This document shows positions 47,403 through 64,000 of a stretch of DNA of 64,000 nucleotides, piece by piece. Position 1 is the first letter of the stretch, and the number at the start of each line of letters is the position of its first letter. The notes under the pieces are model-generated. The model saw only the letters and a list, made by a program, of their open reading frames with translations. It had not been told where the DNA came from and searched no databases. Source of the stretch: Propioniciclava flava (GTDB lineage Bacteria; Actinomycetota; Actinomycetes; Propionibacteriales; Propionibacteriaceae); assembly GCF_004126535.1 (NCBI RefSeq), contig NZ_PPCV01000006.1, positions 1-64,000 on the forward strand. Direction: 5' to 3'. The translations under genes and the position numbers were made by a program.

Positions 47403-47705
47403 GAACCGGGAGAAGGCGTAGGCCATCATAGAGCTGATGAGCACCGAGAGCGCGGTGGAGATCACCGCCACGATGAACGAGTTCAGGGCGTAGCGCGCGA
47501 AGTCCTGCGTGGTCCACGCCTGCACGTAGTTGTCGAAGGTGAACGGGTCGGGGATGAACTGCGGGGGCGTCGTCAGCACGTACGCCTGCGGCTTGAACGA
47601 CGTCGACAGCATGTAGGCGAACGGCGTCACCATGACGACCGCGCCGACGATGAGCACGACGACGCGCAGGGCGGTGAGCGCCCGGCGGGATGCGACGGGG
47701 GTCAT
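47403..47705 (-). pseudogene. Sugar ABC permease, second subunit (3'-truncated)
   Basis: This CUT1-type carbohydrate permease keeps only its N-terminal third. The ATG at 47703-47705 overlaps the stop of the first permease (ATGA). The visible part has an N-terminal helix (LRVVVLIVGAVVMVTPFAYM), then TSFKPQ and ALNSFIVAVISTALSVLISS. It breaks off at MMAYAFSRF, where normal proteins go on to the EAA loop. From TTCGAAGGAG onward the bases belong to the recombinase gene. The frame stays open into the recombinase region, so a long hybrid protein might be made, but its second part is out of frame and meaningless. Confidence 0.85.
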
Positions 47706-48652: not shown

Positions 48653-48981
48653 CACTTGTTCTCGGCGAGGAGGGCGTCGATCTGCTTCGCGGCGGAGCTC
48701 AGCGCCTCCTTGACGCCGACCTTCCCCTCGAACGCGGGCACGAGCTCGGTGCTGAGGATGGCGTCCACTTCGCCGGCCTGCGGGATGGGGAGGCGGGCGC
48801 GTGCGGTCTCGAGCTGATCCGAGAACGACTGGAAGTAGGGGTCGATCTTCGCCTGCGCGTCGGCGAACTCCGGCTTGACCGTCATCTGGCCGACCTTCGC
48901 CATGCCCAGCTGGTAGGCCTCGGACTGCGTGAACTCGACGAACTTGAAGGCGGCGTCCGCGTGCTCCGTCGCCTCGGTGAA
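48652..48981 (-). pseudogene. Sugar ABC substrate-binding protein (5'-truncated)
   Basis: Only the C-terminal roughly 110 residues of a family 1 extracellular sugar-binding protein remain. They begin FTEATEHADAAFKFVEFTQS, then EAYQLGMAKVGQMTV and the final helix VGVKEALSSAAKQIDALLAE. The usual signal peptide and first domain are absent. A TAG in the same frame lies at 48982-48984, in the sequence upstream of gadB, marking a sharp junction near 48980. With the truncated second permease it shows that a block of an ABC operon was cut at both ends. Confidence 0.85.
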
Positions 48982-49040
48982 CTACACTGGAATTGGGTGT
49001 TGGCAACCCCGCCTGCGCTGCACGGTGAAGGAGGAAAATC

Positions 49041-50444
49041 ATGTCGAACACGCAACGCATCACGCGGCACGAGGATGGACTCGACCGGGTCGAGCTCAAC
49101 CCGATCTTCTCCAGGCCGGGAGAGGCTACGATGCTGCCGAAGTTTCTCTTCCCCGAGGAGGAATCGCTGCAGGAAACCGCTTATCAGATCGTCCACGACG
49201 AGATGATGCTCGACGGGAATGCCCGACTCAATCTCGCGACTTTCGTCGGCACCTGGATGGACGATCACGCGTCTCGGCTTTATCTCGAAGCCGCCGATAA
49301 GAACATGATCGACAAGGACGAGTATCCGCAGACGGCAGCCATCGAGACGCGGTGTTGGCGTATGCTCGCCGATCTCTGGCACGCTCCGGACCCCGCCAAT
49401 AGCATCGGGACATCCACGATCGGCTCGTCCGAAGCATGCATGCTAGGTGGCCTCGCCCTCAAGCGCCGCTGGCAGCATGCGCGCCGCAGTGCTGGAGAAC
49501 CCACCGAGAAGCCGAACATCGTGCTCTCCAGCGCGGTGCAAGTGTGCTGGGAGAAATTCTGCAACTACTTCGAGGTCGAACCAAGGTATGTTCCCATCTC
49601 CGAGGAACATAAGGTTCTCGACGGTCACGGCCTCGAGAAGTATGTCGACGAGAACACTATCGGCGTTGTCGCGATCCTGGGCGTCACCTACACAGGGATG
49701 TACGAGCCCGTCGCGGCCATCGCCGCGGCGCTCGATCGCATCCAGGAGGCCACCGGAATCGACGTGCCCATCCACGTTGACGGCGCGTCTGGTGCCATGA
49801 TCGCTCCCTTCTTGCAGCCGGATCTGGAATGGGACTTCCGCATCGAGCGCGTCGCCTCGATCAATACATCGGGACACAAGTACGGCCTCGTCTACCCGGG
49901 GCTCGGTTGGGTCGTTTGGCGGGACATCACCGCGCTCCCCGACGACCTGATCTTCCGCGTCAGCTATCTCGGCGGCAACATGCCGACATTCGCTCTGAAC
50001 TTCTCCCGCCCCGGCGCGCAGGTCCTCCTGCAGTACTACCTATTCTTGCGACTGGGACGCACAGGTTTCCACGCCGTGCAGCAGTCGACCCAAGACGTTG
50101 CGCTGTACCTCTCGAGCGAGATCGCGAAGATTCCGGCCTTCGAGCTCTGGAACGACGGCTCGGACATCCCCGTATTCGCGTGGCGCCTACGAGATGGTTA
50201 CACACAGAACTGGAATCTGTACCACCTGTCGGAACGGCTCCGCATGAAGGGTTGGCTCGTGCCCGCGTACCCGATGCCGGCCGACCTCGTGGACATCACC
50301 GTCCAGCGCATCGTCGTCCGCAACGGGTTCAGCCACGACCTCGCCTTCTCGTTCCTCGCAGACCTCCGGGAAGCAGTCGCCTACCTCGATGCCCTCGAAG
50401 GCCCGCTGCCCGCAGAAGGCCAACACTCCGGATTCCACCACTGA
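49041..50444 (+). CDS. gadB: Glutamate decarboxylase
   Basis: This PLP enzyme converts glutamate to GABA and consumes a proton, giving acid resistance with the GadC antiporter. The 467 residues match GadA/GadB: NLATFVGTWMD, IGTSTIGSSEACMLGGLALK, HVDGASGAM (D247 binds the PLP nitrogen) and INTSGHKYG with the PLP lysine at K280. The C-terminal SGFHH carries the histidine that plugs the active site at neutral pH in E. coli GadB. A strong Shine-Dalgarno (aaggagga, 49028-49035) and a possible TACACT -10 at 48983 lie at the edge of the truncated ABC block. A/T-ending codons are more common than in core genes, suggesting acquisition. Confidence 0.96.
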   Translation: MSNTQRITRHEDGLDRVELNPIFSRPGEATMLPKFLFPEEESLQETAYQIVHDEMMLDGNARLNLATFVGTWMDDHASRLYLEAADKNMIDKDEYPQTAAIETRCWRMLADLWHAPDPANSIGTSTIGSSEACMLGGLALKRRWQHARRSAGEPTEKPNIVLSSAVQVCWEKFCNYFEVEPRYVPISEEHKVLDGHGLEKYVDENTIGVVAILGVTYTGMYEPVAAIAAALDRIQEATGIDVPIHVDGASGAMIAPFLQPDLEWDFRIERVASINTSGHKYGLVYPGLGWVVWRDITALPDDLIFRVSYLGGNMPTFALNFSRPGAQVLLQYYLFLRLGRTGFHAVQQSTQDVALYLSSEIAKIPAFELWNDGSDIPVFAWRLRDGYTQNWNLYHLSERLRMKGWLVPAYPMPADLVDITVQRIVVRNGFSHDLAFSFLADLREAVAYLDALEGPLPAEGQHSGFHH

Positions 50445-50471
50445 CCCAGAGCACAAGGAAGGGACGAGCTG

Positions 50472-52124
50472 ATGTCTCACCACGGGTCCGCAGGACCGGA
50501 CGAGCGCGCGGACGGCACTCAGGCCCCTACGGCGGAGCACGTCAAACCTCATCCGTACGGCCGATCGGGTAACCGCCGCCCAAGAAACCACACAGGGCCG
50601 GCGATTGGCGCCCCCGCGGCAGGAGCGACGGCCTACATGTCGGTCGTGCAGCTGTCAATGCTCACGGTGGTAGTGGTGGCGTCGCTGCGATCCCTGCCCG
50701 CAATGGCCACCTATGGCCTGGGCTCCATCACGCTCTTCGTCATCCCCGCGATTCTGTTCCTCGTGCCGACCGCGCTCGTGGCAGCGGAGCTGGCAACGGG
50801 GTGGAAAGGCGGCATCTTCACCTGGGTGCGTGAGGCCTTCGGCGAACGCGCAGGGTTCGTCGCGATCTGGCTCCAGTGGGTTCAGAACGTCGTGTGGTAT
50901 CCCACGCAGATCGCCTTCATCGCGGCAAGCTTGTCGTTCGTCGTCGGAAAGCCCGATCTCGTACACAGCGGGATCTACACCGCCATCGTCATCCTCGTCC
51001 TCTACTGGGGATCGACTCTCATCACTCTCGCCGGCGGCAACCTCTTCGCCAAAGTCGGCAGCTGGAGCGGGATCTTCGGCACGATCCTCCCCGCGGTTCT
51101 CCTGATCGCGCTCGGAGCGCTCTGGCTGGGCACGGGAGAACATTCCGAGACCTCACTACAGCCTTCAGCGGTCATACCGCCCTGGACCGGGATCGCCGCG
51201 ATCGTCCTCGTGGTCTCGAACGTTCTCGCCTATGCAGGCATGGAAGTCAATGCGGTGCACGCGAACGATCTGAAGAACCCGGGACGCGACTTTCCCCGAT
51301 CGATAGCCTTCGCCACGATCCTCATCCTGGGTGTGTTCATCCTCCCCACAATCGCGATCGCCGTGGCCGTGCCGCAAACCGACCTCGGGGTGACCAACGG
51401 CATCAACCTGGCCTTCCAGACCTTCTTCGACCACTGGGGCATCTCGTGGGGCACACCGGTGATCTCGCTGCTCGTCGCACTCGGTGCTTTCGCCTCGGTG
51501 GTGACGTGGATTGCCGGGCCCTCACGCGGCCTGCTCGCCGCCGCGCGGACGGGACTGCTTCCGCCGTTGCTCCAGCGCCGGAACAAGGCAGGGGTGCAGG
51601 TGGGCATCCTCGCGGTGCAAGGAGTGATCGTGACGTTGCTCGCACTGCTCTTCGTCCTCGTCCCCAATGGCAACACAGCATTCGTCGCCCTGGTGGACAT
51701 GGCAGCAGCGCTCTACCTCATCATGTACATGCTGATGTTCGCCGCCGCGATCCGGCTGCGCCGGACGCAACCAAGGGTTGTTCGTAGCTACCGGACGCCT
51801 GTGATGCCCCTGGTGGCAGGCTTGGGTTTCATCTCCTGCGCCGCAGCCTTCATTCTCGCCTTCATCCGCCCTACCGGGTTCTCTGGGCTCTCCGATGCCA
51901 CCTACCCCCTGGTCGTCGCCGTCGTCGTGCTGCTACTGGGCGGCCCTCCGCTGGTCTTTTACGCCGTGCGCCGCCCAACCTGGGACCGACGGAGCACGGC
52001 GGAGAAATCGAGCTCCGACATCGTTCTGGTGAATCCGATCATGGGTGCTGAGGCGGACTCGGGCACGCCCGACAGCGGTAGCGAGCCCACTGGGAGGAAG
52101 CCGCAGGAACGTCACGAGGACTGA
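50472..52124 (+). CDS. gadC: Glutamate/GABA antiporter
   Basis: The 550-residue APC-superfamily transporter has 12 helices flanked by hydrophilic tails (N-terminal about 50 residues, C-terminal about 45). The helix 1 region MSVVQLSMLTVVVVASLRSLP and the block WKGGIFTWVREAFGERAGF with LQWVQNVVWYPTQIAFIAA match the glutamate:GABA antiporter family. It starts 27 bp after gadB and is surely in the same operon. Together they export GABA and import glutamate in the cytoplasmic membrane. The E. coli C-plug sequence is not obviously conserved. Confidence 0.93.
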   Translation: MSHHGSAGPDERADGTQAPTAEHVKPHPYGRSGNRRPRNHTGPAIGAPAAGATAYMSVVQLSMLTVVVVASLRSLPAMATYGLGSITLFVIPAILFLVPTALVAAELATGWKGGIFTWVREAFGERAGFVAIWLQWVQNVVWYPTQIAFIAASLSFVVGKPDLVHSGIYTAIVILVLYWGSTLITLAGGNLFAKVGSWSGIFGTILPAVLLIALGALWLGTGEHSETSLQPSAVIPPWTGIAAIVLVVSNVLAYAGMEVNAVHANDLKNPGRDFPRSIAFATILILGVFILPTIAIAVAVPQTDLGVTNGINLAFQTFFDHWGISWGTPVISLLVALGAFASVVTWIAGPSRGLLAAARTGLLPPLLQRRNKAGVQVGILAVQGVIVTLLALLFVLVPNGNTAFVALVDMAAALYLIMYMLMFAAAIRLRRTQPRVVRSYRTPVMPLVAGLGFISCAAAFILAFIRPTGFSGLSDATYPLVVAVVVLLLGGPPLVFYAVRRPTWDRRSTAEKSSSDIVLVNPIMGAEADSGTPDSGSEPTGRKPQERHED

Positions 52125-52342
52125 ACGCCTCCAGGCGCCGCATAATGACATAGCCCGTTGCGGACGACGGACTAGCCTCGATCTTTCATAGGGCCCGGCT
52201 GACCGACGGTCCAGCGTCGCTGCCGGTCTCGTAGTCATGATTCTGGCATGGGGGTGTGACAAGGTCCCGCATGCGCTGCGGGTAGGCGTCGGTTCCACTG
52301 CCGAAGAGGTGTTGCTGATCGTCGGGTCGGATGGCGGCGTGG

Positions 52343-53102
52343 TCAGGGTGGCGTGAGGGCTGCGAGCCGGTTCCAGCCGTCGAGGATGGTTGTGGACCAG
52401 GGGTTGTTCCGCTTGAGGTGCAGGATGGTGCGCCTTCCCATGTGGGCCAACGTGGCGGCGATCGTGAACAGGCGGTGGCGCAGGGTCTTGGGTTCCCATC
52501 GCCTGGCGGGGCCGTCGAGGCAGAGCATGGCCATCCAGGCGAGCACGTCGCTGGCCAAGCCAACGATGAGCAGCCAGATGCGGTTCTGCGCGAAGCCCTG
52601 CAAGGGCAGGCTCGACAGGCCAGTGTCCTTGGCGGTGCGGATGCGGTCCTCGCAGCGGGCCCGGCGCCGGTGCCGCATCTCCAAGTCAGCCAACTGACCG
52701 GTGCGGGTGTTGGTGACGAAGGCGGTAAGCCGGTAGCCATCGACATCATCAAAACGGAGCTGAGCGCCGGGGTGGGGGCGTTCCCGGCGGACGATCACTC
52801 GCATCCCTGAGGGATACCCGCTCAACGATCCCTTGCTCTGGAGGAGGTCGGTGAACTCGACCACTGCTGCGCCGTCGCGGACCTGGCCGTCGGCGTTGTA
52901 GGCGTCCTGCCACGCGGTCTCGGGGATGAGGTGGTAGAGCTCCGGGGTGCTCATGGGCAGCGTGAAGCCGATCGAGTACGACACCCCCTTGCTGGAGAGG
53001 AAGCCGAGAAGCTGTTTGGAACCACCAGCCCCGTCGGTACGGATCAACACCTTGCGGCCGGGCCTGTTCGGGTTGATCCCGGGCACCTGTTTCAACGCGG
53101 AG
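52343..53102 (-). pseudogene. IS1380-family transposase (5'-truncated)
   Basis: About 250 C-terminal residues of a DDE transposase of the IS1380 group are present: VLIRTDGAGGSKQLLGFL near the start, then RVIVRRERPHPGAQLRFDD, RTGQLADLEMRHRRRARCED and IRTAKDTGLSSLP, where the ED of RARCED marks the catalytic glutamate region. The N-terminal part with the first aspartate is cut off at the left end of the IS3-type element at about 53103 and does not reappear on its far side. The roughly 210 bp between gadC and this fragment hold no gene; a catagggcccggctga at about 52189 may be the IS terminus. Confidence 0.82.
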
Positions 53103-53134
53103 GGGACTGCTGCACGATCGGGTGACAGGTGGGG

Positions 53135-54037
53135 TCACGCAGCCTGAGTGGCTGGCGTGGTCATGATTGCTTCGTATTCGACGGGGGTCAATCGTCCGAG
53201 GGCGGACTGCCTGCGGCGTCGGTGGTAGGTCCTCTCGATCCAGGTCACGATCGCGATCCGGAGCTCTTCGCGAGTGGCCCAGGCACGGCGGTTGAGGACG
53301 TTCTTCTGGAGTAGGGCGAAGAAGCTCTCCATGGCGGCGTTGTCACCCGCGGCGCCGACCCGGCCCATCGATCCGACCATGCCGTGACGGTTGAGTGCAC
53401 GGACGAATTTCCTGGAACGAAATTGCGATCCTCTGTCCGTGTGGACCACGCATCCGGCCACGTCACCGCGCCGCGCGACGGCATTGTTGAGCGCCGCGAC
53501 CGCGAGCCGGGACTTCATCCTCGAGTCGATGGAGCAGCCCACGATCCGGTTGGAGTAGACGTCCTTGAACGCGCACATGTAGAGCTTGCCTTCACCGGTC
53601 CAGTGCTCCGTGATGTCGCCGACCCAGAGCTGGTTCGGACCCTCCGCGTTGAACTCGTGACGGGTCACGCCGTGCGTGTCAACGAAGGCGCACAGGTCGT
53701 CGTGGACCGGCGGGCCGGGCTTCTTCGCCTTGCCCTTCTTGGGCTTGCCGAACACGCTCCACCAGCCGTTGGCGGAGTAGATCCGCCACGCGGTCCGCTC
53801 CGCCATCGCTTGGCCGGCATCGCGGGCCTCGTCGACGAGGAACCGATAACCGAACTCCGGGTCGTCGTCGTAGGCGTCGAACAAGGCGTTCGCGCGGTAG
53901 GCCTCGACCAGTTCGGCATCGGTGACCGGTTGGGCGAGCCAGCGGTAGTAGGGCTGGCGAGCGATCTTGAGCACCCGGCACGTCACCGAGACGGGGATCC
54001 CGTCCTCGGCCAGCTCGCGGACGAGCGGGTACATCAT
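53135..54037 (-). CDS. IS3-type transposase OrfB
   Basis: The 300-residue integrase-core protein has an HTH_21-like start (VSVTCRVLKIARQPYYRWL), then the DDE triad: D in WVGDITEHWTGEG, D in VVHTDRGSQFRSR and E in AAMESFFALLQKNVL. It ends RRRQSALGRLTPVEYEAIM. The start overlaps OrfA by ATGA (54034-54037), so re-initiation or frameshifting could produce a fusion protein. It looks intact and potentially active. Confidence 0.92.
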   Translation of the reverse strand: MMYPLVRELAEDGIPVSVTCRVLKIARQPYYRWLAQPVTDAELVEAYRANALFDAYDDDPEFGYRFLVDEARDAGQAMAERTAWRIYSANGWWSVFGKPKKGKAKKPGPPVHDDLCAFVDTHGVTRHEFNAEGPNQLWVGDITEHWTGEGKLYMCAFKDVYSNRIVGCSIDSRMKSRLAVAALNNAVARRGDVAGCVVHTDRGSQFRSRKFVRALNRHGMVGSMGRVGAAGDNAAMESFFALLQKNVLNRRAWATREELRIAIVTWIERTYHRRRRQSALGRLTPVEYEAIMTTPATQAA

Positions 54038-54327
54038 TTTCCCGGAAGGTTCGCCTGCGACAGATAGGCGGCCGCCCTGCGGAGGACTTCCACTTCTTGC
54101 TCGAGCAGCCGGTTGCGGCGCTTGAGCTCACGCAGTTCGGCGTTCTGGTCCTCGGTCATCCCAGGCTTCACGCCGTCCTCGACATCGGCGCGGCGCATCC
54201 ACGAGTTCAGCGTGGTCTGGTGGATCCCGAAGTCCTTCGCGATCTGGTCGAGCGGGGTCTTCGGGTCCCGGCTCCTGGCGACACGAACCACGTCGTCACG
54301 GAACTCGCGGGGGTAGGGCTTGGGCAC
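54034..54327 (-). CDS. IS3-type transposase OrfA
   Basis: The 97-residue protein has an N-terminal helix-turn-helix (REFRDDVVRVARSRD, DQIAKDFGIHQTTLNSWMRR) and a C-terminal leucine-zipper coiled coil (LRELKRRNRLLEQEVEVLRR). It binds the IS ends. ATG at 54325-54327, 69 bp inside the right end of the element. Confidence 0.92.
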   Translation of the reverse strand: MPKPYPREFRDDVVRVARSRDPKTPLDQIAKDFGIHQTTLNSWMRRADVEDGVKPGMTEDQNAELRELKRRNRLLEQEVEVLRRAAAYLSQANLPGK

Positions 54328-54395
54328 AGCGACATCCTCTCAAGCCTGCCCATCGGGCAAGCCAGGTCAGTTGTCACCTATCCGTGCAGCAGTCC

Positions 54396-54725
54396 CTAGG
54401 GAGCGAGATCGCCAAGGTCGTTGGGGGCGACGTGCCAGTCGGCGTCGCCTGGGACGAGAACATGGATGCCTGACTGCTGAGCCTGTTCGAGACGGGCGGC
54501 GATGTCCTTCGCCACAGGTGCGTCGAAGTGGTCGCGCCAGACCTGCGCGTCGATGGCGCTGAGACCCACCACCGCGCCGTCACGCTCAGCAAGCCGGAGC
54601 GTCTCCATCGCTCCGAGACCATTCAGGACTCGGCCCGTCACCGGATCATTGGGCTCGACAAGCATGGACAACACCATCCGCGCGGTTCGCTCGTCACCTG
54701 CAACATCACTCAAGCCAGCCATCAT
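54396..54725 (-). pseudogene. DprA/Smf N-terminal fragment cut by the IS3-type element
   Basis: The 109 residues end in SGIHVLVPGDADWHVAPNDLGDLAP, which resembles the PGD-x-x-WP...LxDLGxxAP segment just before the Rossmann domain of DprA, the protein that loads RecA on incoming ssDNA. The stop TAG (54396-54398) is formed exactly at the IS boundary, so the C-terminal Rossmann domain is gone. It is not found on the other side of the IS. dprA copies are common on actinobacterial mobile regions; this is a dead fragment. Confidence 0.72.
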
Positions 54726-54808
54726 CGGTTCTTCTCGGCGTTCGATGCCGATGAGGTACGCACGCGCTCCCAGGCCTGAACCGTGGAATCGAGTCCGTCG
54801 GAAGGTGT

Positions 54809-55273
54809 CTATGACCGTTCGCTGGGGTCGTCCGCGATGAGCCCCGCTTCGACGAGGGACACACGCACCGCCTTGCGACCAACTCCCATCCGACGGCCGA
54901 TCGCACGCATCGAGACGCCCGCTCGCGCCAGCCGCACGGCCTCCGCCTTCTCGTCGACTCCCAGCCCCGGTCGGCGGCTTGGGACGTTGCGACGGCGAAG
55001 GTGGGAGAACACTGTGGCGCGGTGGATGCCGTACCTCTCAGCGAGAGCCTTCACACCCATCCCGGCCAGGTGATCGCCGACGAGCGCGTCCACCTCGGAG
55101 GCGGTGAGAAAAGTTTGAGCCGTCTCGACAGTCCTCACCACAGGGCCGCGATCGTCCCTCGGAGCGGTGCTTTCGGGCCGTCGGGAGACCGCGTAGACCC
55201 CGCGGTTCAGGCGGTTGACCAGGGTTTTCGTCTTGGGGGCGGAGTTGCCAAGCGTGCTACTCAGGCACCCCAT
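54809..55273 (-). CDS. Helix-turn-helix protein with two HTH motifs
   Basis: The protein has up to 154 residues. Two helix-turn-helix units are visible: ALAERYGIHRATVFSHLRRR (about residues 78-97) and AGVSMRAIGRRMGVGRKAVR (about 119-138), resembling the DNA-binding domain of serine invertases/resolvases without a catalytic domain. The ATG at 55271-55273 is nominal. A GTG at about residue 45 (VVRTVETAQ) may be the real start, as the first 44 residues look unordered. It lies 83 bp upstream of the dprA fragment on the same strand. It may be a regulator carried by the island; function unknown. Confidence 0.6.
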   Translation of the reverse strand: MGCLSSTLGNSAPKTKTLVNRLNRGVYAVSRRPESTAPRDDRGPVVRTVETAQTFLTASEVDALVGDHLAGMGVKALAERYGIHRATVFSHLRRRNVPSRRPGLGVDEKAEAVRLARAGVSMRAIGRRMGVGRKAVRVSLVEAGLIADDPSERS

Positions 55274-55275
55274 CG

Positions 55276-55307
55276 AAGGCCCGCTCCGTATCGTCGGAGC
55301 GGGCCTT
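55276..55307 (+). terminator. Strong hairpin with T-tract at the island's right edge
   Basis: aaggcccgctccg (55276-55288) pairs perfectly over 13 bp with cggagcgggcctt (55295-55307), followed by ttcctt on the plus strand, a classical intrinsic terminator. No plus-strand gene precedes it closely, so its own gene was probably lost or lies far upstream. The 100 bp beyond, to the isomerase stop, hold nothing recognisable. Confidence 0.7.
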
Positions 55308-55410
55308 TTCCTTCAGGGCTAGGCGCCATTCTCCGCAGCGCCACCGTTCGACACAGGTGGGCGCAGACCCCGCTACCGGGCCAGCCGCGTCGGATTCAGC
55401 GCGTGAACGA

Positions 55411-56286
55411 TCAGCGCGGCGTCTCTGGGTCGAGCAACTCGTTGAGCAAGTCGGCCTCCGCGACGGCCCGCAGTGCCTCCCCAAGCGTGGGAACGTCGGG
55501 ATACCAGGTGCGTTCCCATTCTAGGGAGACGGGCCCGGAGTATCCCCCGCGGCGCAGGATGCGCAGCGCTTCCCTCAAGGGCACCTGCCCTGTTCCGGGC
55601 AGGACAGGGGTGAGGTCGCGCGGGTGGGTGACGTCTTTGATCTGCACGTAGCCTCGCCCCTCGCGCAGCCACGGCCCCAGCATCCGCCACGTGTCGGCGG
55701 GTGATTCACCGACGCGCCACGGGTGCAGCAGGTCCCAGATGACGCCCACGCTGGCGGGCACCCCTCCGGGGATGGCGTCCAGGAGGCGAACGATGTCGCT
55801 CCCGCGCAGGTGGGAGTCGTGGGTTTCCACGAGGATGCCGACACCCAGGTCAGCGGCGAGCAGGCTGGCCATGCCGAGCCGCTCCCCCATCTCCGCGTTG
55901 ACGCCCGCTCGGTCTCTCACAAGGTCTGGGACGTGATCGGTGGGGCCGGGCTGGGTCGCGGCGCCAGGAAAGACCCGCACGAAGGGTGCGCCCAGATCCA
56001 CGGCCAGGTGCAGGTGCGCGGACAGGTCGGCGACGACGACATCCGTCGGAACGGGGGCGCCGAGCCGAACGCCTGACGCGATAGCGAGCGTGGTGATTCC
56101 TGAGGCGGCCAGCCGGGCGCGCACCGCGGATCGCTCGGCGGCGGTCAGGCCGGTGTGGACGAGAGCATCCGGGGCTGCCCTCACCTCCAGCCAGGTGGCC
56201 CCGACGGCGTGCAGGGCCGCGATGATCGCGTCCCACGACTCGCCGGGCACCCCGAAGACACCCACCTGCGCCGAGGTTCGCCCCAC
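55411..56286 (-). CDS. Sugar phosphate isomerase/epimerase (AP-endonuclease-2 fold)
   Basis: This is a 291-residue TIM-barrel protein of the xylose-isomerase-like group. Metal-site motifs are ILVETHDSHLRGSD (E and H), WDLLHPWRVGESP (D and H), VQIKDVTHP (K and D) and the C-terminal VSLEWERTWYP glutamate. Members include hydroxypyruvate isomerase, myo-inosose dehydratase (IolE) and tagatose epimerases; the exact substrate is not visible. It lies 84 bp downstream of an MFS transporter and a GntR regulator on the same strand, suggesting a small carbohydrate uptake/catabolic operon. Confidence 0.82.
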   Translation of the reverse strand: MGRTSAQVGVFGVPGESWDAIIAALHAVGATWLEVRAAPDALVHTGLTAAERSAVRARLAASGITTLAIASGVRLGAPVPTDVVVADLSAHLHLAVDLGAPFVRVFPGAATQPGPTDHVPDLVRDRAGVNAEMGERLGMASLLAADLGVGILVETHDSHLRGSDIVRLLDAIPGGVPASVGVIWDLLHPWRVGESPADTWRMLGPWLREGRGYVQIKDVTHPRDLTPVLPGTGQVPLREALRILRRGGYSGPVSLEWERTWYPDVPTLGEALRAVAEADLLNELLDPETPR

Positions 56287-56370
56287 TCATACGAACCAGC
56301 CTAAGGCGGCTCGCCCTGCGCGTCGGAGTGAACACCCATCTCCGGCTCAAAGGGGTGGAGAGCGTCGGCG

Positions 56371-57678
56371 TCAGACCTCGGCGACCACCCCAGGACGCGG
56401 GGCGCTGCTGGCGGGCAGGTGCGAGCGCCACGCGCAGGCCACCACGATGAGGCAGCAGATCGCGACCGCCACTCCCCCCGTGAACAGGGCCGAGTAGGTG
56501 ACGTACTTCGACAGCACAGCCAAGATCGCCGGAATGAAGAAGCCGGTGTAGGCGATGGCGTAGTAGACCGCGGTCAGCCCCGCCAGGTCGTCGGGACCAG
56601 CGATGCGCTGCACCTCACTCAGCCCAGCGACGAGCGCCAGACCGTACCCGACACCCAGCACGCAGGCCGCCACGAGGACCAGCGGCAGCGAGAGTACCGT
56701 CGTCGCCAGGGCCGCCAAACCCATGCCCACGGCCAGGAACGCCATCGCGATCACCGACGCACGCGCCGAATGCCGGGTGTCGATGACCTTGCCGACCAGT
56801 TGTGCTGCGACGCCGAATGCCAGGGTCAACGCGGTCACGAGCGCGGACAACGCGATCGGCATGCCCCCTGAATGGTCACGCATCAGGCCCGGCAGGACGG
56901 CATAGGCACTCCCGACGCTTCCGAACACCCACGGCGCCAACGGGACGACGACCCGCAGGAAGCGTCGGTGACCGATCGGCGGGACGCGCAGGTCATCCCG
57001 CAGCTTCGGGCGCGACCCGGCAGGCTCCACGGCGCGCGTCTCCGGGACGCCGAACAGCCAGGCGCCCGTGACGAGGGTCAGCGCGATGTGCAAGACGTAC
57101 GTCGTCGCGGTCGGCCAGGGGCCCCATTGGGCGAGCGCCCCGGCCAGCCCCGCCCCCACGAGGAAGCCGACGGTGAGCGACATGGATGCGCGCCCGGCTC
57201 CGGCGTCCGGCTTGCCCTCGCGCACAGACAGTTCCTTGATCCACGTGGTGCCCACCGCCATGACCAGGCCGAGCGCGATGCCGCAGAACACTCGCCCGAG
57301 CGCGAGCAGGAACGACGAATCGGGCCCCACAGCCAGGATCAGGGACCCCAGCAGGCTGAGCGGTGCGGCGGGCAGCATGAGAGGGCGTCGCCCGTAGCGA
57401 TCCGACAGTGGCCCACCGGCCAGTAGCGCCGGGACGATGCCGACCACGTAGGCGCCTAGCAGCACGTCCACGGTGACGGTCGAGAACTTCGATACCTCCC
57501 GGTACATCACCAGCAGTGGGGTGAATTCGTTGCCGCCCCAGGCGACCGCGAACATCGAACCACCCACCGCCAGCCAGGCACCGGCGAAGCGGGATGCGTC
57601 GGCGTCGGGTTTCCCCTTGGACGCGTCGGGAGAGGGCGCGCCGGTCGCGCTTGCGGGTGGTGTCGCCATCGCGCTCAT
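56371..57678 (-). CDS. MFS transporter
   Basis: The 435-residue transporter has 12 helices. After a hydrophilic N-terminus of about 30 residues it shows GGPLSDRYGRRPLMLPA, the loop 2-3 A-motif, and GRVFCGIALGLVMAVGTTW. The central loop is long and cytoplasmic (PETRAVEPAGSRPKLRDD). The start overlaps the stop of the GntR gene (ATGA), so GntR very likely controls it together with the downstream isomerase. Confidence 0.85.
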   Translation of the reverse strand: MSAMATPPASATGAPSPDASKGKPDADASRFAGAWLAVGGSMFAVAWGGNEFTPLLVMYREVSKFSTVTVDVLLGAYVVGIVPALLAGGPLSDRYGRRPLMLPAAPLSLLGSLILAVGPDSSFLLALGRVFCGIALGLVMAVGTTWIKELSVREGKPDAGAGRASMSLTVGFLVGAGLAGALAQWGPWPTATTYVLHIALTLVTGAWLFGVPETRAVEPAGSRPKLRDDLRVPPIGHRRFLRVVVPLAPWVFGSVGSAYAVLPGLMRDHSGGMPIALSALVTALTLAFGVAAQLVGKVIDTRHSARASVIAMAFLAVGMGLAALATTVLSLPLVLVAACVLGVGYGLALVAGLSEVQRIAGPDDLAGLTAVYYAIAYTGFFIPAILAVLSKYVTYSALFTGGVAVAICCLIVVACAWRSHLPASSAPRPGVVAEV

Positions 57679-58352
57679 CGGGCCGCCACCTCGCCGATCC
57701 CGTGGGCGCGATGCAGGTGGGCGCGCAGGGCGTCGTGAAACCCGGCCGCGTCACCGGACTCGATGAGGGCGATGAGGGCGGCATGCTCGGCGACGAATCC
57801 GCGTCCGCGGCTCTCGTCTTCCAGCATGGACAGCGCGATCATCCGCTGCTGCCGCTCCCGCAGCGTGACGTAGAAGTCCAGCAGGAGGCTGTTGGCTCCC
57901 GCCGCCACCAACTCGAGGTGGAACTGGGAGTCTTCGCGGGCGTACTCGTCCAGATCGCCCGCATCCAAGGCGGTGACCTGACGTTCGACGATGGCGCTCA
58001 GCCGGGCGGCGAGGCCCTGACGTGCCGCTTCGGGGCGCGTCAAGAGCGCCTCGACCGCATGGGATTCGAGCAGGAGCCGCGCCTCGATGACGGCCTCGGC
58101 TTCCCCAGGCGCGACGGGCACGACCAGCGCACCCCGCTTGGGGTAGAGCCGCAGCCACCCTTCGGTCTCCAGCCGCAGGAATGCCTCGCGCACGGGCGTC
58201 CGGCTCAAACCCAGCTGTCCGGCGATGTCGCCTTCGCTGAGCATCATCCCGGTGGGCAGTTCGCCCGTCAGGATGCGTTGTTTCGTGTGTTGGTAGGCGG
58301 TCTCCGCGGCGGCGGGGCGATCCGTCGCTCGGGTGGGATTCAACATAGACAC
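57675..58352 (-). CDS. GntR-family regulator (FCD subfamily)
   Basis: The 225-residue regulator has an N-terminal winged helix (MLSEGDIAGQLGLSRTPVREAFLRLETEGW, with the GntR hallmark LGLSRTPVREA) and a C-terminal all-helical FCD ligand domain (EARLLLESHAVEAL, the metal-site histidine in FHLELVAAGAN, and HRAHGIG at the end). Starts are GTG at 58352 or ATG at 58346. A palindrome covers this start region, suggesting autorepression. FCD regulators usually sense sugar acids or other organic acids. Confidence 0.92.
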   Translation of the reverse strand: MSMLNPTRATDRPAAAETAYQHTKQRILTGELPTGMMLSEGDIAGQLGLSRTPVREAFLRLETEGWLRLYPKRGALVVPVAPGEAEAVIEARLLLESHAVEALLTRPEAARQGLAARLSAIVERQVTALDAGDLDEYAREDSQFHLELVAAGANSLLLDFYVTLRERQQRMIALSMLEDESRGRGFVAEHAALIALIESGDAAGFHDALRAHLHRAHGIGEVAAR

Positions 58353-58364
58353 AAGATGAGTCTA
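58346..58364. promoter_or_regulatory. Candidate GntR operator
   Basis: The inverted repeat TAGAC-N9-GTCTA spans 58346-58364 and overlaps the GntR start codons. A protein bound here would block transcription or initiation of its own operon. Confidence 0.45.
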
Positions 58365-58464
58365 AGGAGTGGCGTTGGCCTCCCTCGCGCTGTCTCAGAC
58401 TCCGTGAAGGCAGCGGGGGGCGCCGCCCAGCCGAACAGCAGGCGCCCGCACCCCGCCCGCGCCG

Positions 58465-58821
58465 TCAGGACGCGGTGCGCTGGATCCTCTCCACCGCACG
58501 GCCCCGCGCCAACTCGTCGACCACCTTGTCCAAGACGCGGATCTGACGCATCAGCGGATCCTCGATCTGCTCGACCCGATGCCCGCAGATGACGCCAGTG
58601 ACCAAGGCGGCGGCCGGGTTGAGCCGCGGAGCGGAGGCGAAGAACTCCGCCAGGCTGCGCTCATCCTCCAGGCAGGACGCCAGCCCCATCACGTCATAGC
58701 CGGTCAGCCACCCCAGCACGGCGTCCAACTCTTCCTTCGTGCGCCCCTTCTTGGTCACCTTCGCGACGTAGAGCGGGTAAATGCTGGCGAAGCTGACCTG
58801 AAAGATCCGATGACCGGCCAT
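58465..58821 (-). CDS. DUF2200 family protein
   Basis: The 118 residues match DUF2200 throughout: HRIFQVSFASIYPLYVAKV, KKGRTKEELDAVLGWLTGYD, FFASAPRLNPAAALVTGVIC and VEQIEDPLMRQIRVLDKVVD. It is a small cytoplasmic protein of unknown function that, from the family pattern, should be mainly helical. ATG at 58819-58821. It stands alone: upstream is a 156-bp gap with no recognisable feature, and downstream is the GntR promoter region. Confidence 0.9.
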   Translation of the reverse strand: MAGHRIFQVSFASIYPLYVAKVTKKGRTKEELDAVLGWLTGYDVMGLASCLEDERSLAEFFASAPRLNPAAALVTGVICGHRVEQIEDPLMRQIRVLDKVVDELARGRAVERIQRTAS

Positions 58822-58977
58822 GCAGCCTCCTACGGGGCCTCGTTCGACGCTCGGGACTTGTGTACCGCCCCACCCTGACCGGTCGCGGGCGCCAGTTCAA
58901 GCCCTCCCGGTTCCCCTCCCCACGCAACCGGCGGGGCGCAACGGGATCTGCCACTCGCGGCTGCCCCCCCGTGCGGG

Positions 58978-59847
58978 TCAGGCGAGGAGCGCCAGCGTCC
59001 CTGCGACGACCAGGGACAGCCCCACCCAACCCCGCATCGAGACACGTTCACGAAACACCACAACCCCGGCGGCGACCGATACCAGGATGCTCAGCTTGTC
59101 GATCGGCACCACCACGCTGGCAGGGCCTTCTTGCAGCGCCCGGTAGTAGCACAGCCACGACAGCCCGGTCGTCACGCCCGAGACCACCAGGAAGACCCAA
59201 CTGCGCGCATCAATGGTGCGGATGCCTCGCTGACTGCCGGTCACCGCCACCACTCCCCACGCGGCGAGGAGCACCACCCCGGTGCGGATCGCGGTTCCAA
59301 GCGTCGACTCGACGCCTTCGATACCGACCTTGCCCAGGATGGCCGTCAGCGCCGCAAACAGCGCGGAGCCACCCGCGTAGGCGAGCCACGACCAACTCCC
59401 CCGCCCTCGCTCCGCACGTGCTGCAGGGGCGCGCAGTTCGATCATGAGATAGGTCCCCAGCCCGATCGCGACCATCCCACCCGCCACGAAGGCGTCCACG
59501 CGCTCGCCCAGGAAGGTGATCGCGAGCACCATCGTGACGACGGTGCTCGTCTTGTCCACCGGCACCACCTTGGTGACGTCGCCCAGTTGCAGGGCCCGGA
59601 AGTAGCACAACCAGGATGCGCCCGTGGCGAGCCCCGACAGGATCAAAAACACCCAGGTGTGGCCGTCGATGGTGCCCAGGGTCGTCTGGGAGCCAACCAG
59701 GAAGACCAGCCCCCACGCCAGCACAAGGACAACACCCGCCCGCAACGCGGTCGCCAGGTTCGCGTCCACATCGCGGATGCCGAGTTTTGCCAGCACCGCG
59801 GTCACTCCAGCAAAGAACGCCGACCCCACCGCGAACGCCATCCACAT
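58978..59847 (-). CDS. EamA/DMT-family transporter
   Basis: The 289-residue protein has ten helices in two homologous EamA halves. The duplication is easy to see: ATALRAGVVLVLAWGLVFLV with GASWLCYFRALQLG in the first half, AIRTGVVLLAAWGVVAVTGS with GLSWLCYYRALQEG in the second; each half ends in a VVPVDK or VVPIDK motif. Members export amino acids or metabolites; substrate unknown. The 237 bp upstream, before dedA, contain no gene. Confidence 0.9.
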   Translation of the reverse strand: MWMAFAVGSAFFAGVTAVLAKLGIRDVDANLATALRAGVVLVLAWGLVFLVGSQTTLGTIDGHTWVFLILSGLATGASWLCYFRALQLGDVTKVVPVDKTSTVVTMVLAITFLGERVDAFVAGGMVAIGLGTYLMIELRAPAARAERGRGSWSWLAYAGGSALFAALTAILGKVGIEGVESTLGTAIRTGVVLLAAWGVVAVTGSQRGIRTIDARSWVFLVVSGVTTGLSWLCYYRALQEGPASVVVPIDKLSILVSVAAGVVVFRERVSMRGWVGLSLVVAGTLALLA

Positions 59848-60084
59848 CAGCTCGTCACTCCCCCCGCAGCGATGCTATGCCGAGACGACGCACCGCCGAC
59901 CTCGCATTCCACAAGGAGACACCCCACGCGAAGCTCCTGGATTCCGCTGCCGCACCGGCCCCCACCGGGGCCCCAACAGAGCGCCGAACCAGACCATCCA
60001 GGGGCGGTGGTCCCGAGCCTGCACGAAAGGGCAGCACAATGGAGGGCGGAAACAGCACCACGGACCACCCCTGAAGGAGACACG

Positions 60085-60738
60085 ATGGACATCCTCGGCT
60101 GGCTGAGCAACCTCACGAACGCGGGGGCCCTGCTCGCCTCCTTCGGGCCCTGGGTGCTCGTGGGCATGGGAGTGGTGGTCTTCATCGAGTCGGGTCTCCT
60201 GTTCCCGTTCCTGCCCGGTGATTCCCTCCTAGTGACCGCGGCCATCCTGCGCGACTCGCTCAACATCAGCATCTGGCAGATCCTGATCGTCGCCATCGCA
60301 GCAGCCATCGCGGGCGACCAGGCAGGGTTTTGGCTCGGGCGCCGGTTTGGGCGGGGCCTGTTCAAGCCCAACGCACGCGTCCTGCGCACCGACCGCTTGG
60401 AGGCGGCTGAGGCGTTCTTCGATCGTCACGGGCCCCTGGCCTTGGTCTTGGGCCGCTTCGTCCCGATCGTGCGGACCTATGTTCCGCTCGTCGCGGGTAC
60501 CGCCAACATGCGTTACCGGCACTTCGTCATGTGGAACATCCTGGGCGCCATCGGCTGGGTGGTCAGCATGACCCTCGTCGGCGTCCTTCTCGGTGGAATC
60601 CCGGGGATCACGCGCAACATCGAGGCCATCATGCTGGTCATCGTCGGGGTGTCGGTCGCGCCGCTGATCATCTCGGCCATCCGCACCCGCCTGGCCGCCC
60701 GTAAGGCGACCTCGAACCAGGAGACCGAGAACGCATGA
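60085..60738 (+). CDS. DedA-family membrane protein
   Basis: The 217-residue DedA/SNARE-associated protein has about five or six helices. Signature blocks are FIESGLLFPFLPGDSLL (E and the PGD motif) and FFDRHGPLALVLGRFVPIVRTYVPLVAGTANM (GRF-x-PxxR...P-x-x-AG). Family members are thought to flip phospholipids or carrier lipids and to maintain membrane potential. ATG at 60085 with an aaggaga Shine-Dalgarno. Its stop overlaps the next gene (ATGA), coupling it to the IIB-like protein. Confidence 0.93.
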   Translation: MDILGWLSNLTNAGALLASFGPWVLVGMGVVVFIESGLLFPFLPGDSLLVTAAILRDSLNISIWQILIVAIAAAIAGDQAGFWLGRRFGRGLFKPNARVLRTDRLEAAEAFFDRHGPLALVLGRFVPIVRTYVPLVAGTANMRYRHFVMWNILGAIGWVVSMTLVGVLLGGIPGITRNIEAIMLVIVGVSVAPLIISAIRTRLAARKATSNQETENA

Positions 60739-61097
60739 CGCAGCCCCCACTCACCAGCACCTCGACGCCTGAGACGGGGGCCCCGACCACGCCGCCAAGC
60801 CCGGCTGTGCGCATCATCACCGTCGGGCCGTCCGGTTTGGGCGTCTCCTTGCTGATCGAGATGACGGCCCGCTGCGCCACACCCCCGCTAGGGATCTCCG
60901 CCGACATTGAGGCGCTCGACCTGGCGTCTGCCCAGCAAGCCGCTCCCCGTGCGGATCTGCTGCTCGCTAGCCCAGAACTCGTGGACGCGCTGGCGTCGGT
61001 CGCGCCGATCGTGCGCCCCATCCGCGATCCCCTGGATGTCGCCGACGTGACGCGGCAGATTTCCCTGGCCCTGGGTCAACGCGACGCCATAGCCTGA
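60735..61097 (+). CDS. PTS EIIB-like domain protein lacking the phospho-cysteine
   Basis: The 120-residue protein has a Thr/Pro-rich N-terminal extension of about 24 residues, then RIITVGPSGLGVSLLIEMTA and DLLLASPELVDALASVAPIV. This follows the layout of ascorbate/galactitol/lactose-type PTS IIB domains, which start with a CxSGLGTS phosphorylation loop, then D...DLIV-x-S-x-x-L and a final amphipathic helix. Here the cysteine position is Gly or Pro, so it cannot be phosphorylated in the usual way. The ATG overlaps the dedA stop. No EIIA or EIIC genes are near. A regulatory or scaffold role is possible; the assignment rests on pattern only. Confidence 0.5.
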   Translation: MTQPPLTSTSTPETGAPTTPPSPAVRIITVGPSGLGVSLLIEMTARCATPPLGISADIEALDLASAQQAAPRADLLLASPELVDALASVAPIVRPIRDPLDVADVTRQISLALGQRDAIA

Positions 61098-61224
61098 ATC
61101 TTTCCCCGTTGAGGGGCTCCGCGACGTGGCCGCGGACGCCCTCAGCAGGGCTGTCGGTGGCTCGGGGTAGGCTGTCCGCCACAGCGTGGCACCTGGACCA
61201 ATAACTCGACATTAAGGCTCACCC

Positions 61225-62037
61225 ATGATCGAGCTGACCGGCGTGACCAAGACCTACCCAGACGGCACCGTTGCGGTAGACGACTTCAGCGCCCAGTTCC
61301 CACCCCACAAAACCACCGTGCTCCTGGGTTCCTCCGGCAGCGGCAAGACGACCATCCTGCGCATGGTCAACCGCATGGTGGACGCCACTTCGGGCACGAT
61401 CACCATTGACGGCGACGACATCGCCGACCGCGATCCCGTGAAACTGCGCCGCAGCATCGGCTACGTCATGCAAAACGGTGGGCTGCTGCCTCACCGCAGC
61501 GTCCTGGACAACATCGCGACCGTCCCCCTCCTCAACGGGGTCAGCAAGGCGTCCGCTCATGCGCGAGCGCGCGAGCTCATGGACTTGGTCGGCTTGGACG
61601 CCAAAATGGCCAAGCGCTACCCGGCCCAGCTCTCTGGTGGGCAGCAACAACGCGTCGGGGTCGCCCGAGGCTTGGCCGCCGACCCCAACATCTTGCTGAT
61701 GGACGAGCCCTTCGGCGCCGTCGACCCGCTGGTACGAGCCGAACTGCAAGACGAACTCCTGCGCATCCAGCACACCTTGGCCAAGACGATCGTCTTCGTC
61801 ACCCACGACGTCGAGGAGGCCCTGCGCCTCGGCGACCAGATCATCCTGCTAGCCGAGGGCGGCCACATCGCCCAGCGCGGCACCGGGCCCGAACTTCTTG
61901 GGGCTCCAGCCAGCCCGTTCGTGGCCGATTTCTTGGGCCTGGATCGCGGCTCCCGCGCCCTGTTCGACCACGACGGGGTGCTCGTGGACGCCTTCGGGCG
62001 CGCGGCCGGCGTGCTGACTCAGGACGCGTCCGCGTGA
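61225..62037 (+). CDS. opuCA: Osmoprotectant ABC transporter, ATP-binding protein
   Basis: The 270-residue ATPase of a glycine betaine/carnitine/choline importer has Walker A GSSGSGKTT (about residues 36-44), Q-loop VMQNGGLLPHRSV, signature LSGGQQQR, Walker B ILLMDEPFGAVDP and switch THD. The HRS-V-x-x-N-I-A-T-V-P region is typical of OpuCA/ProV. The C-terminus ends soon after the core, without tandem CBS domains. The ATG at 61225 begins an operon CA-CB-CD-CC whose genes overlap by 4 bp. The 127-bp upstream gap has GC-rich inverted segments but no clear riboswitch. Confidence 0.92.
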   Translation: MIELTGVTKTYPDGTVAVDDFSAQFPPHKTTVLLGSSGSGKTTILRMVNRMVDATSGTITIDGDDIADRDPVKLRRSIGYVMQNGGLLPHRSVLDNIATVPLLNGVSKASAHARARELMDLVGLDAKMAKRYPAQLSGGQQQRVGVARGLAADPNILLMDEPFGAVDPLVRAELQDELLRIQHTLAKTIVFVTHDVEEALRLGDQIILLAEGGHIAQRGTGPELLGAPASPFVADFLGLDRGSRALFDHDGVLVDAFGRAAGVLTQDASA

Positions 62038-62714
62038 CCTGGCTGTTCGACAACCTCGCCATGGTGGGCGAGTACTTGGTCAGTCATCTGGCCCTGGCGA
62101 TTCCACCGATCGTGGCGAGCTTCGTGCTCGCCGTCCCGATCGCATGGCTGGCTAACCGGGTCGGTTGGCTGCGCACCCCCTTGTTGACCGGCGCAGGGCT
62201 CACCTACGCGATTCCGTCCCTGCCGCTGTTCATCGTGCTCCCGATCATCATCGGCACTTCGGCCCGTGACCCGCTGAACATCATCGTGGCCCTGACGCTG
62301 TACGGGCTGGCCCTGATGGTGCCGCTGACGGCTGATGGGCTGCGGCAGGTCAACCCTTTGGCCTTGGATGCCGCGAAGGCCATGGGGTACACCTCGACGC
62401 GCAGGTTCCTCACCGTGGAACTGCCGCTGGCAGGGCCGACCCTCGTCGCGGGGCTACGGGTCGTCGCGGTGAGCACTGTGTCGCTGGTCACGGTCGGCGC
62501 CGTGCTCGGCATCCCCAGCCTCGGATCCTTGTTCACTGAGGGCTTCCAGCGCGGCATCGTCGCCGAGATCGTGACGGGCATCGTCCTGACCGTGGCGCTC
62601 GCGCTGCTGGTGGACGCCGTCGTGGTGCTCGGTGGGCGCCTGCTGCTCCCCTGGACGCGTCCCGCACGTGAGGAACGCGACCACGCCTCCACCCCTGAGG
62701 CGGTGACGGCATGA
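62034..62714 (+). CDS. opuCB: Osmoprotectant ABC transporter, permease
   Basis: The 226-residue permease has five or six helices: MVGEYLVSHLALAIPPIVAS at the N-terminus, TYAIPSLPLFIVLPIIIGTS, and the cytoplasmic loop LDAAKAMGYTSTRRFLTVELPLAGP with the EAA-type interaction motif. The start is a GTG at 62034 overlapping the ATPase stop. It pairs with the next permease. Confidence 0.92.
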   Translation: MTWLFDNLAMVGEYLVSHLALAIPPIVASFVLAVPIAWLANRVGWLRTPLLTGAGLTYAIPSLPLFIVLPIIIGTSARDPLNIIVALTLYGLALMVPLTADGLRQVNPLALDAAKAMGYTSTRRFLTVELPLAGPTLVAGLRVVAVSTVSLVTVGAVLGIPSLGSLFTEGFQRGIVAEIVTGIVLTVALALLVDAVVVLGGRLLLPWTRPAREERDHASTPEAVTA

Positions 62715-63370
62715 ACTTCCTCATCGAGGCGTTCGCCTGGCTCGCCGACCCCACGCATTGGGGCGGCCCGAACGGCATCGGCGTGCGGTTGGGTGAACAC
62801 CTGGCCTACTCGGTCGCGGGCGTCGCGCTCGCCTGCGTGATCGCCATTCCGGCCGGGTGGTGGGTGGGTCACAGCGGACGCCTCCGCGGCCTGGCCGTCG
62901 GTATCTCCGGGGGCGCCCGTGCCCTACCCACCCTCGGCCTTGTGACGCTGCTGGGGATCCTGTTTGGGATCGGACTGATCGGCCCGATGGTCGCCTTCGT
63001 CATCTTGGCCCTGCCCTCGGTGCTTGCGGGCGCCTATTCGGGGGTCGAGGCCGCCGACCGTCAGGCCGTCGACGGGGCACGGGCTTCGGGGATGACCGAG
63101 TTCCAGGTCCTGACGAAGGTCGAAGTCCCGTTGGGCTTCCCGCTGCTCGTCGGAGGCATCCGGTCCGCCTTCCTCCAGGTCATCGCCACCGCGACCCTGG
63201 CCGCCTACGTCGGATCGGGTGGCCTGGGGCGCTTCCTGTTCCTGGGCCTGAAGACGCAGGATTACGCCCAGATGCTCGCAGCGTCGCTTCTGGTCGTCGC
63301 CCTCGCTTTGGTTATTGACGTCACGTTTGCCGCTATCCAACGCCTCACCTCCCCCGCCCGCTTTCGCTGA
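62711..63370 (+). CDS. opuCD: Osmoprotectant ABC transporter, permease
   Basis: The 219-residue second permease has HLAYSVAGVALACVIAIPAG, GARALPTLGLVTLLGILFG and the EAA loop VDGARASGMTEFQVLTKVEVPLGFP, ending with FLFLGLKTQDYAQMLAASLL. ATG at 62711 overlaps the opuCB stop (ATGA). The two permeases probably form a heterodimer. Confidence 0.92.
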   Translation: MNFLIEAFAWLADPTHWGGPNGIGVRLGEHLAYSVAGVALACVIAIPAGWWVGHSGRLRGLAVGISGGARALPTLGLVTLLGILFGIGLIGPMVAFVILALPSVLAGAYSGVEAADRQAVDGARASGMTEFQVLTKVEVPLGFPLLVGGIRSAFLQVIATATLAAYVGSGGLGRFLFLGLKTQDYAQMLAASLLVVALALVIDVTFAAIQRLTSPARFR

Positions 63371-63412
63371 CCCACGGAGGGTCCGACCTCCACCCATTGA
63401 AAGGAACCGCCC

Positions 63413-64000
63413 ATGTCCCCCATCTCTCGCCGACGTCTCGGCGCCCTCACCGCCCTCGCCGGCCTCGGCGTGGTCGCCGCCGGGTGCTCGACTGGAAACC
63501 CCTTGGCACCGTCCTCCGCGCCGGCGACGGGCAAGGGGTCCGGGGCCACTGTGGTGATCGGCTCGCAGCAGTACTACTCCAACGAGATCATCGCCGAGTT
63601 GTACGCGCAGGCCCTGGAAGCGTCCGGGTTCACCGTCACACGCCAGTATCAGATCGGCCAGCGGGAGATCTATCTCCCCGAACTCGAAGCCGGGAAGATC
63701 GACGTCATTCCTGAGTACAGCGGCAACCTGCTGCAGTACTACGACAAGAAGGCGACGGCCACCGACGCGGCACAGATCGCGACCGCACTGGGCCAGGCCC
63801 TCCCGAAGGGGCTGCGCGCGTTGACCGCGGCAGCGGCGTCCGATCAGGATTCCTACACCGTCACCAAGGCGCTGGCCGACCAGTACGGGCTGGCGGCCAT
63901 CGCCGATCTCACCAAGGCCCCTCAGCCGGTGAAGATCGCGGCCAACAGCGAGTTCGCGACGCGTCCCTACGGCCCCGCGGGCGTCAAGACCGCCTACGGC
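63413..64000 (+). CDS. opuCC: Osmoprotectant ABC transporter, substrate-binding lipoprotein (partial)
   Basis: The first 196 residues of the binding protein are present; the gene runs off the window. A twin-arginine-like SRRRLG and hydrophobic stretch lead to a lipobox VVAAGCS, with the lipidated cysteine at residue 25. The mature part VVIGSQQYYSNEIIAELYAQ, then ELEAGKIDVIPEYSGN, matches the OpuAC/glycine betaine-binding fold. The ATG at 63413 has aaggaa nine bases upstream and follows opuCD by 42 bp. Confidence 0.9.
   Translation, partial: MSPISRRRLGALTALAGLGVVAAGCSTGNPLAPSSAPATGKGSGATVVIGSQQYYSNEIIAELYAQALEASGFTVTRQYQIGQREIYLPELEAGKIDVIPEYSGNLLQYYDKKATATDAAQIATALGQALPKGLRALTAAAASDQDSYTVTKALADQYGLAAIADLTKAPQPVKIAANSEFATRPYGPAGVKTAYG

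Follow-up and report, generated by a model that had tools for sequence, protein, structure and literature searches.

A cysteine-less IIB-like gene between dedA and opuC in Propioniciclava flava: a probable vestige of an ascorbate-type PTS operon

Why does a PTS IIB-like gene devoid of the catalytic cysteine lie between a DedA gene and an osmoprotectant transporter in Propioniciclava flava? In the 64,000-nucleotide stretch of DNA that we analysed (hereafter, the window), this open reading frame occupies positions 60735..61097 of the plus strand and encodes 120 residues. Its ATG overlaps the stop codon of a DedA gene (60085..60738, plus strand; a membrane protein of 217 residues with a VTT domain scoring 81.6 bits) in the motif ATGA at 60735-60738. 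The opuC operon (61225..64000, plus strand), with genes for an ATPase, two permeases and a binding protein that runs past the window end, starts 127 bp 3' of it. Both the overlap and the transporter had been rightly noted in the original prediction, which saw here a repurposed IIB fold acting as a sensor or regulator of membrane or osmotic functions. Our own reading is that the gene is probably a vestigial IIB of the ascorbate (UlaB/SgaB, GAT) type, left after loss of its operon.

The IIB-like domain pattern is confirmed by profile and by fold. The Pfam PTS_IIB model (PF02302) covers residues 26-106 with 26.1 bits for a cut-off of 23.6 (E = 1.3e-5), a weak match at the sequence level, yet one over the curated threshold. 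The only NCBIfam model to respond is that of the ascorbate IIBC, below threshold at 13 bits, and sequence matches in the PDB are marginal, the best being 3czc (E = 0.014). Given an alignment of 26 rows (the protein and 25 relatives), AlphaFold2 predicts an IIB fold with a mean pLDDT of 82.6, and a Foldseek search with this model returns as best PDB match the same 3czc entry, the PtxB IIB of S. mutans (E = 1.7e-7, target TM-score 0.83); PtxB is part of an ascorbate PTS according to an excerpt of PMC4802650. Folded without relatives the protein reaches a pLDDT of 39.8, so that the fold assignment leans on homology.

The predicted IIB domain spans residues ~25-110 and is preceded by a Thr/Pro-rich N-terminal extension of 24 residues; the start that aligns with other IIBs is the GTG at 60807. 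An AGGAG motif can be read in the sequence 11 nt 5' of the ATG at 60735. Codon usage was of no help as a discriminator: the frame scores higher than the other five frames of its stretch and lower than its neighbours (0.19 versus 0.49-0.65 per codon), and from GTG 60807 the score is 0.31, within the range of the window's larger genes (0.19-0.68). Genome and viral contigs scanned with this protein alone gave no match, an outcome of the short exact patterns used, as relatives do exist. A plasmid search retrieved nine records with an IIB-like match at 30-36% identity, all from Enterococcus, of which seven are annotated as PTS IIB.

The loop was said to contain no cysteine, and this stands. The stretch VGPSGLGVS (60822..60848, plus strand; residues 30-38) takes the place of VCG(M/V)G(I/M)G(T/S)S in most relatives, and Gly31 falls in the alignment column of their catalytic cysteine. 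Compared with the forms VCGMGIGTS and VCGVGMGSS, the changes are Cys to Gly, then Gly to Pro and Met or Val to Ser. The only cysteine of the protein, Cys47, is aligned with Lys in most relatives. What the protein shares with the ascorbate/GAT EIIBs (UlaB/SgaB/PtxB; PF02302) is their fold and length, an ungapped IIB-domain alignment with the IIB of a same-genus genome (G123, below) and the conserved residues Gly34, Gly36, Ser38, Asp62 and Ala66; it differs from them in the catalytic Cys-to-Gly change, in having no cognate IIC that we could find, and in lying outside a PTS operon.

Is the altered loop found elsewhere? The catalytic cysteine is kept in 36 of 37 distinct IIB sequences, the sole exception being that of the window, and in 80 of 80 loci retained from 182 named relatives; the two sets overlap in part, and the pattern behind the 80-locus scan left the cysteine out while requiring G[ILM]G[TS]S. 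No second Cys-less relative appeared in these 80 loci or among the matches with sequence in overlapping samples of 198 family, 391 order and 394 class genomes, where 25 of the 45 matches listed by the class search came without locus sequence (one of the 25 had it from the order search) and where a limited number of candidates was scored per genome, such that a second Cys-less copy could escape. In the portions available to us, publications on Cys-less IIBs, ascorbate-PTS/transketolase operons and EIIB-Gat regulators held no description of this gene, which is not proof of absence.

The absence of a PTS membrane component, also part of the original prediction, holds for the neighbourhood, where no PTS membrane gene adjoins the frame. 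In the genome as a whole, EIIC-GAT, the UlaA-type IIC, has no match at E<=1. Contig C20 has two open frames, of 834 and 714 aa, each with one further IIB domain that passes the cut-off and one IIA-2 domain, and there is one frame in the genome with two PRD matches. Without its cysteine the protein would be unable to serve as a phosphoryl carrier at the canonical site, and a cognate partner in the membrane was not found in the genome.

The origin of the gene becomes clearer when the same interval is viewed in a congeneric species, G123. Among the 10 other genomes of the genus with an opuC match, G123 is the closest by its opuC ATPase (89%), a closeness judged by this protein alone, without a species tree; the opuC proteins of the two are 71-89% identical. 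The two genomes share a left flank, the gene for a DUF2200 protein (58465..58821, minus strand; 70% identical, in the same order and orientation), and a right flank, opuC. Between them, G123 has an intact ascorbate-type PTS operon, the order being DUF2200 (minus strand), ROK (minus strand), IIA, IIB, IIC, transketolase and opuC. The G123 IIA matches PF00359 with 105.5 bits, its IIB, with cysteine, PF02302 with 58.4 bits, and its IIC both EIIC-GAT with 456.6 bits and the ascorbate IIC equivalog with 554 bits for a cut-off of 380.

In the window the same interval reads DUF2200, EamA (minus strand), DedA (plus strand), the IIB-like gene (plus strand) and opuC. The EamA-family transporter gene (58978..59847, minus strand) is divergent from that of DedA, and no EamA match at E<=1e-15 was obtained in the fetched G123 stretches. 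The best match of the G123 IIB within 40000-64000 is precisely the IIB-like frame, at 43% identity over 86 residues and without a gap, whereas tblastn gave no trace of ROK, IIA, IIC or transketolase in this range (best E 0.19). At the nucleotide level, a search of the G123 operon against 57500-62000 returned DUF2200 and opuC together with short matches at E 0.006-0.83. One of these, at 60951-60981, lies within the IIB-like gene and in register; the remaining ones are taken as chance.

Judged from gene order and sequence likeness, partial loss of the operon would be the simplest history of this interval. An ancestor would have carried ROK - IIA - IIB - IIC - transketolase between DUF2200 and opuC, as G123 does now; in the lineage of the window the repressor, IIA, IIC and transketolase would have been lost, EamA and DedA would have arrived, and a single IIB-derived frame would have remained. 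The window thus differs from the full operon in having this frame alone left, while the operon copy of another genome, G170, has the same domains as that of G123 and is located elsewhere. Translation of the remaining frame, if any, would occur by coupling to DedA, and its selection would probably be relaxed. The DedA overlap and the vicinity of opuC would then be results of rearrangement, forming no functional module. We infer the order of these events, the relaxed selection and the lack of function.

Is there, on the contrary, a functional link between the gene and its neighbours? At E<=1e-35, a DedA relative is present in 69 of the 198 genomes of the family, including that of the window. We compared 33 DedA-bearing loci (29 from the family search and 4 from a genus search, with flanks of ~1.5 kb), using both the window IIB-like protein and the G123 IIB as queries, and no match was better than E 0.07, which means that the DedA-IIB pairing is not conserved in these loci, an outcome that the original prediction itself had named as refuting it. 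On the opuC side, we examined 7 of the 10 other genus genomes with an opuC match; only G123 has an IIB before opuC, with its cysteine and inside the full PTS operon. The window and G123 can be aligned over the ~60 bp that precede opuC (61165..61224, plus strand), although in G123 the gene before this leader encodes transketolase; leaders of other species are less alike. Since this leader aligns despite differing upstream genes, opuC is probably independent of the IIB-like gene for its leader. A consensus scan of 59800-61300 found neither a promoter nor a terminator.

In the light of these comparisons we consider it highly improbable that the protein is a sensor of membrane or osmotic state linked to DedA or OpuC. 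The idea draws on the DedA overlap and on the position before opuC; against it, neither neighbour is conserved with the gene in the loci checked, the opuC leader aligns with one that in G123 follows a transketolase gene, and the interval before opuC differs in length and content across the genus. The proposed tie to membrane or osmotic functions accordingly finds no support, and we reject a special DedA-IIB or osmotic module for want of conservation in the loci checked.

The variability of this interval can be measured from a point further upstream. The window contains at 45011-45673 an exonuclease gene with an RNase_T domain, which we take to be Orn, and from there to opuC (45674-61224) the distance is 15.6 kb, versus 1.3, 2.5 and 3.4 kb in three other species of the genus (G131, G125 and G129, respectively). 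In G123 the 32.7 kb that precede opuC gave no Orn match, and neither did the shorter stretches examined in G126, G130 and G132. The segment 45674-61224 looks like a variable insertion region.

Several other genes in this segment deserve mention. It includes a serine recombinase gene at 46235-47239, which seems to lack part of the resolvase domain (of the 145 profile positions, the match starts at the 57th), and a transposase pair at 53135-54327 with rve and HTH_Tnp_1 domains, presumably of the IS3-like type. A pyridoxal-dependent decarboxylase gene adjoins that of an amino-acid permease at 49131-52124, a layout that we assume to be an acid-resistance pair based on amino-acid decarboxylation. 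A short helix-turn-helix-like fragment is common to the variable regions of the window (54809-55093) and G123 (L197:12116-12400); by eye, the two agree at 56 of their first 60 residues.

Could the IIB-like gene have come in together with DedA, from an unsampled lineage that pairs a Cys-less IIB with DedA? G123 yields no DedA match at E<=1e-20, and the DedA of the window is closer to DedAs of other genera (up to 58% identity over most of the protein) than to the four found in the same genus (39-43%); the window also has recombinase and transposase genes at a distance of ~6-15 kb upstream, and the terminal branch of the IIB-like protein (see below) is long. All this would suit a joint horizontal arrival. 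However, none of the 33 DedA-bearing loci has an IIB nearby, and a chance co-location is made less likely by the presence of an IIB at the same place in G123. We hold such an arrival to be decidedly unlikely.

If the gene descends from an operon of the G123 type, which IIB is its parent? A tree of 65 rows (101 sequences thinned at 85% identity) and 94 columns places it in a group of seven rows with support 97/94, comprising the window protein, the G123 IIB, two Austwickia sequences, UBA1383 and both IIBs of Actinotalea lenta. The nearest row is the second, non-operonic IIB of A. lenta (support 89/77), and the terminal branch of the IIB-like protein measures 3.99 changes per column versus a median of 0.19. 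Forcing the G123 IIB as sister lowers the log-likelihood by 7.9 units, an arrangement that the AU test does not reject (p 0.288), and a codon model with hand-set topologies favours the second A. lenta copy as sister by 12 units. A search of G123 with the IIB-like protein gives a single match. As far as the sequences go, the parent may have been either the operon's IIB or an accompanying second copy such as those of G170 and A. lenta, and the remaining frame would derive from one or the other.

Second, separate IIB genes of this kind are found beside the ROK gene of an IIA-IIB-IIC-transketolase operon in G170 (L083:7941-8216) and in A. lenta (L117:6004-6294), both outside the IIA-IIB-IIC order; the latter is the only one of the 80 named loci with two IIB frames within its flanks. 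These second copies may have a regulatory role. The window protein resembles them in that the A. lenta copy is its nearest neighbour in the tree; they differ from it in keeping the cysteine (VCTMGIGTS and VCGMGIGTS).

Is the gene a relic or is it still constrained? Its divergence at the amino-acid level is raised: pairwise with the G123 IIB, dN is 0.61 and dS 1.0, versus 0.08-0.26 and 0.66-0.80 in five flanking genes. In codon models, fits with both branch length and omega free on the window branch ran to the limit; because the two parameters are confounded, omega is reported as a profile and not as a test result. At a clock-like length of ~1 neutral change per site, which is half of what pairwise fits give for opuCA, opuCB and DUF2200 (1.6-2.4; the values for opuCC and opuCD, 4.6 and 20, are poorly bounded, and of the six fits those for opuCD and the IIB ran to their bound), omega on the window branch is 0.43-0.53, for a background of 0.09 on the better tree and of 0.04, the fit's lower bound, on the other. 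Over branch lengths from 1.5 to 0.6 on the better tree omega goes from 0.28 to 0.73; the likelihoods along this profile lie within 5 units of each other and increase gradually as the branch lengthens and omega falls. With branch length free and the G123 IIB as sister, equal omega is not rejected (lnL -1985.80 versus -1985.72); fixing omega at 1 is 2-5 units worse than leaving it free under three topologies. These results point to relaxed selection, short of formal rejection. GC content by codon position is also flatter than in the G123 IIB (0.75/0.51/0.81 versus 0.60/0.41/0.91), a weak sign given that third-position GC is 0.74 in one Austwickia IIB and goes down to 0.78 in the window's larger genes.

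The fit to the family weighs in the opposite direction. The protein scores 68.4 bits against the family profile, versus 123-137 for eight relatives. This score was reached in none of 2000 neutral, stop-free simulations that started from the G123 IIB or the second A. lenta IIB and evolved to 38-46% identity with their start (maximum 56.8 bits), and in 17 of 1200 that started from the UBA1383, A. lenta operon-copy and Austwickia IIBs, 78-79% identical to the G123 IIB, and evolved to 40-44% identity with the latter. When decay was made recent, that is, when it began after functional divergence, from sequences 55-63% identical to the G123 IIB, 209 of 600 simulations from the second A. lenta copy and 560 and 495 of 600 from the two G170 copies attained it. 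The simulations thus disfavour a long neutral decay and allow a recent one, which suggests constraint on much of the branch, perhaps followed by recent decay. The more conserved a column, the more often it is kept: 8 of 14 columns conserved at >=90%, 17 of 35 at 70-90%, 7 of 19 at 50-70% and 6 of 21 below.

The 91-codon alignment with the G123 IIB contains no stop and no gap. An open frame alone is weak evidence, since, depending on the start and GC, between 24 and 40% of sequences evolved neutrally in simulation to 0.47 changes per site remain open. The lack of indels is a stronger sign than that of stops and argues against long neutrality: an excerpt of a mutation accumulation study in Mycobacterium smegmatis gives 207 indels to 856 substitutions, with 78.74% of the indels in simple repeats (PMC4938668), a ratio from which we calculate ~2-20 indels for 38-83 substitutions (simulation means; the range goes from indels outside repeats only to all indels), and none is observed.

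These marks of constraint bear directly on a reading in which the IIB fold was kept after loss of the transporter, as a repurposed pseudo-IIB that acts by binding and is coupled translationally to DedA, for example by mimicking unphosphorylated IIB toward an IIA or a PRD-type regulator. This is possible, if short of probable. The gap-free frame agrees with it, as do the preferential retention of conserved columns, the AGGAG ahead of the ATG, and a profile score above all neutral simulations from the G123 and second A. lenta IIBs and nearly all those from close operon-type IIBs. The two IIA-2 domains and the two-PRD frame of the genome would be possible partners, and regulatory IIB-like domains are known in PRD regulators, as described in the consulted part of PMC8560693. 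According to the same excerpt, the EIIB-Gat-like domains of MtlR and others likewise employ the IIB fold for regulation and not transport; they differ in being parts of large regulators, those of MtlR, AtxA and RivR having the cysteine, whereas the window protein is free-standing. On the other hand, no Cys-less relative appears among the sampled matches or the 80 loci, the pairing with DedA is absent from 33 loci, amino-acid divergence is raised, and simulated recent decay is sufficient to give the observed score. The more specific picture of a locked 'unphosphorylated IIB', a pure-binding pseudo-IIB that titrates an IIA or PRD regulator and whose synthesis is tied to DedA, seems to us unlikely.

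Of the first proposal, then, the IIB fold and the missing cysteine stand. The intact frame and the family fit give repurposing some probability, but a vestige explains more at once. We prefer the vestige to a new function by a moderate margin, because cysteine, UlaA-type IIC and the other operon genes have all disappeared and the altered form is unique among the relatives examined. A remnant of a lost operon accounts jointly for the position of the gene, its absent partners and its lost cysteine; even so, the gene need not be dead.

A comparison between congeners thus explains an otherwise odd trio of genes, and it carries a warning: in a variable stretch of the chromosome, an operon-like overlap is no proof of function. 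If the repurposed reading were true after all, a PTS phosphocarrier would here clearly have become a protein that works by binding alone, and another species would still show, at this very locus, an intact relative of the operon from which it came.
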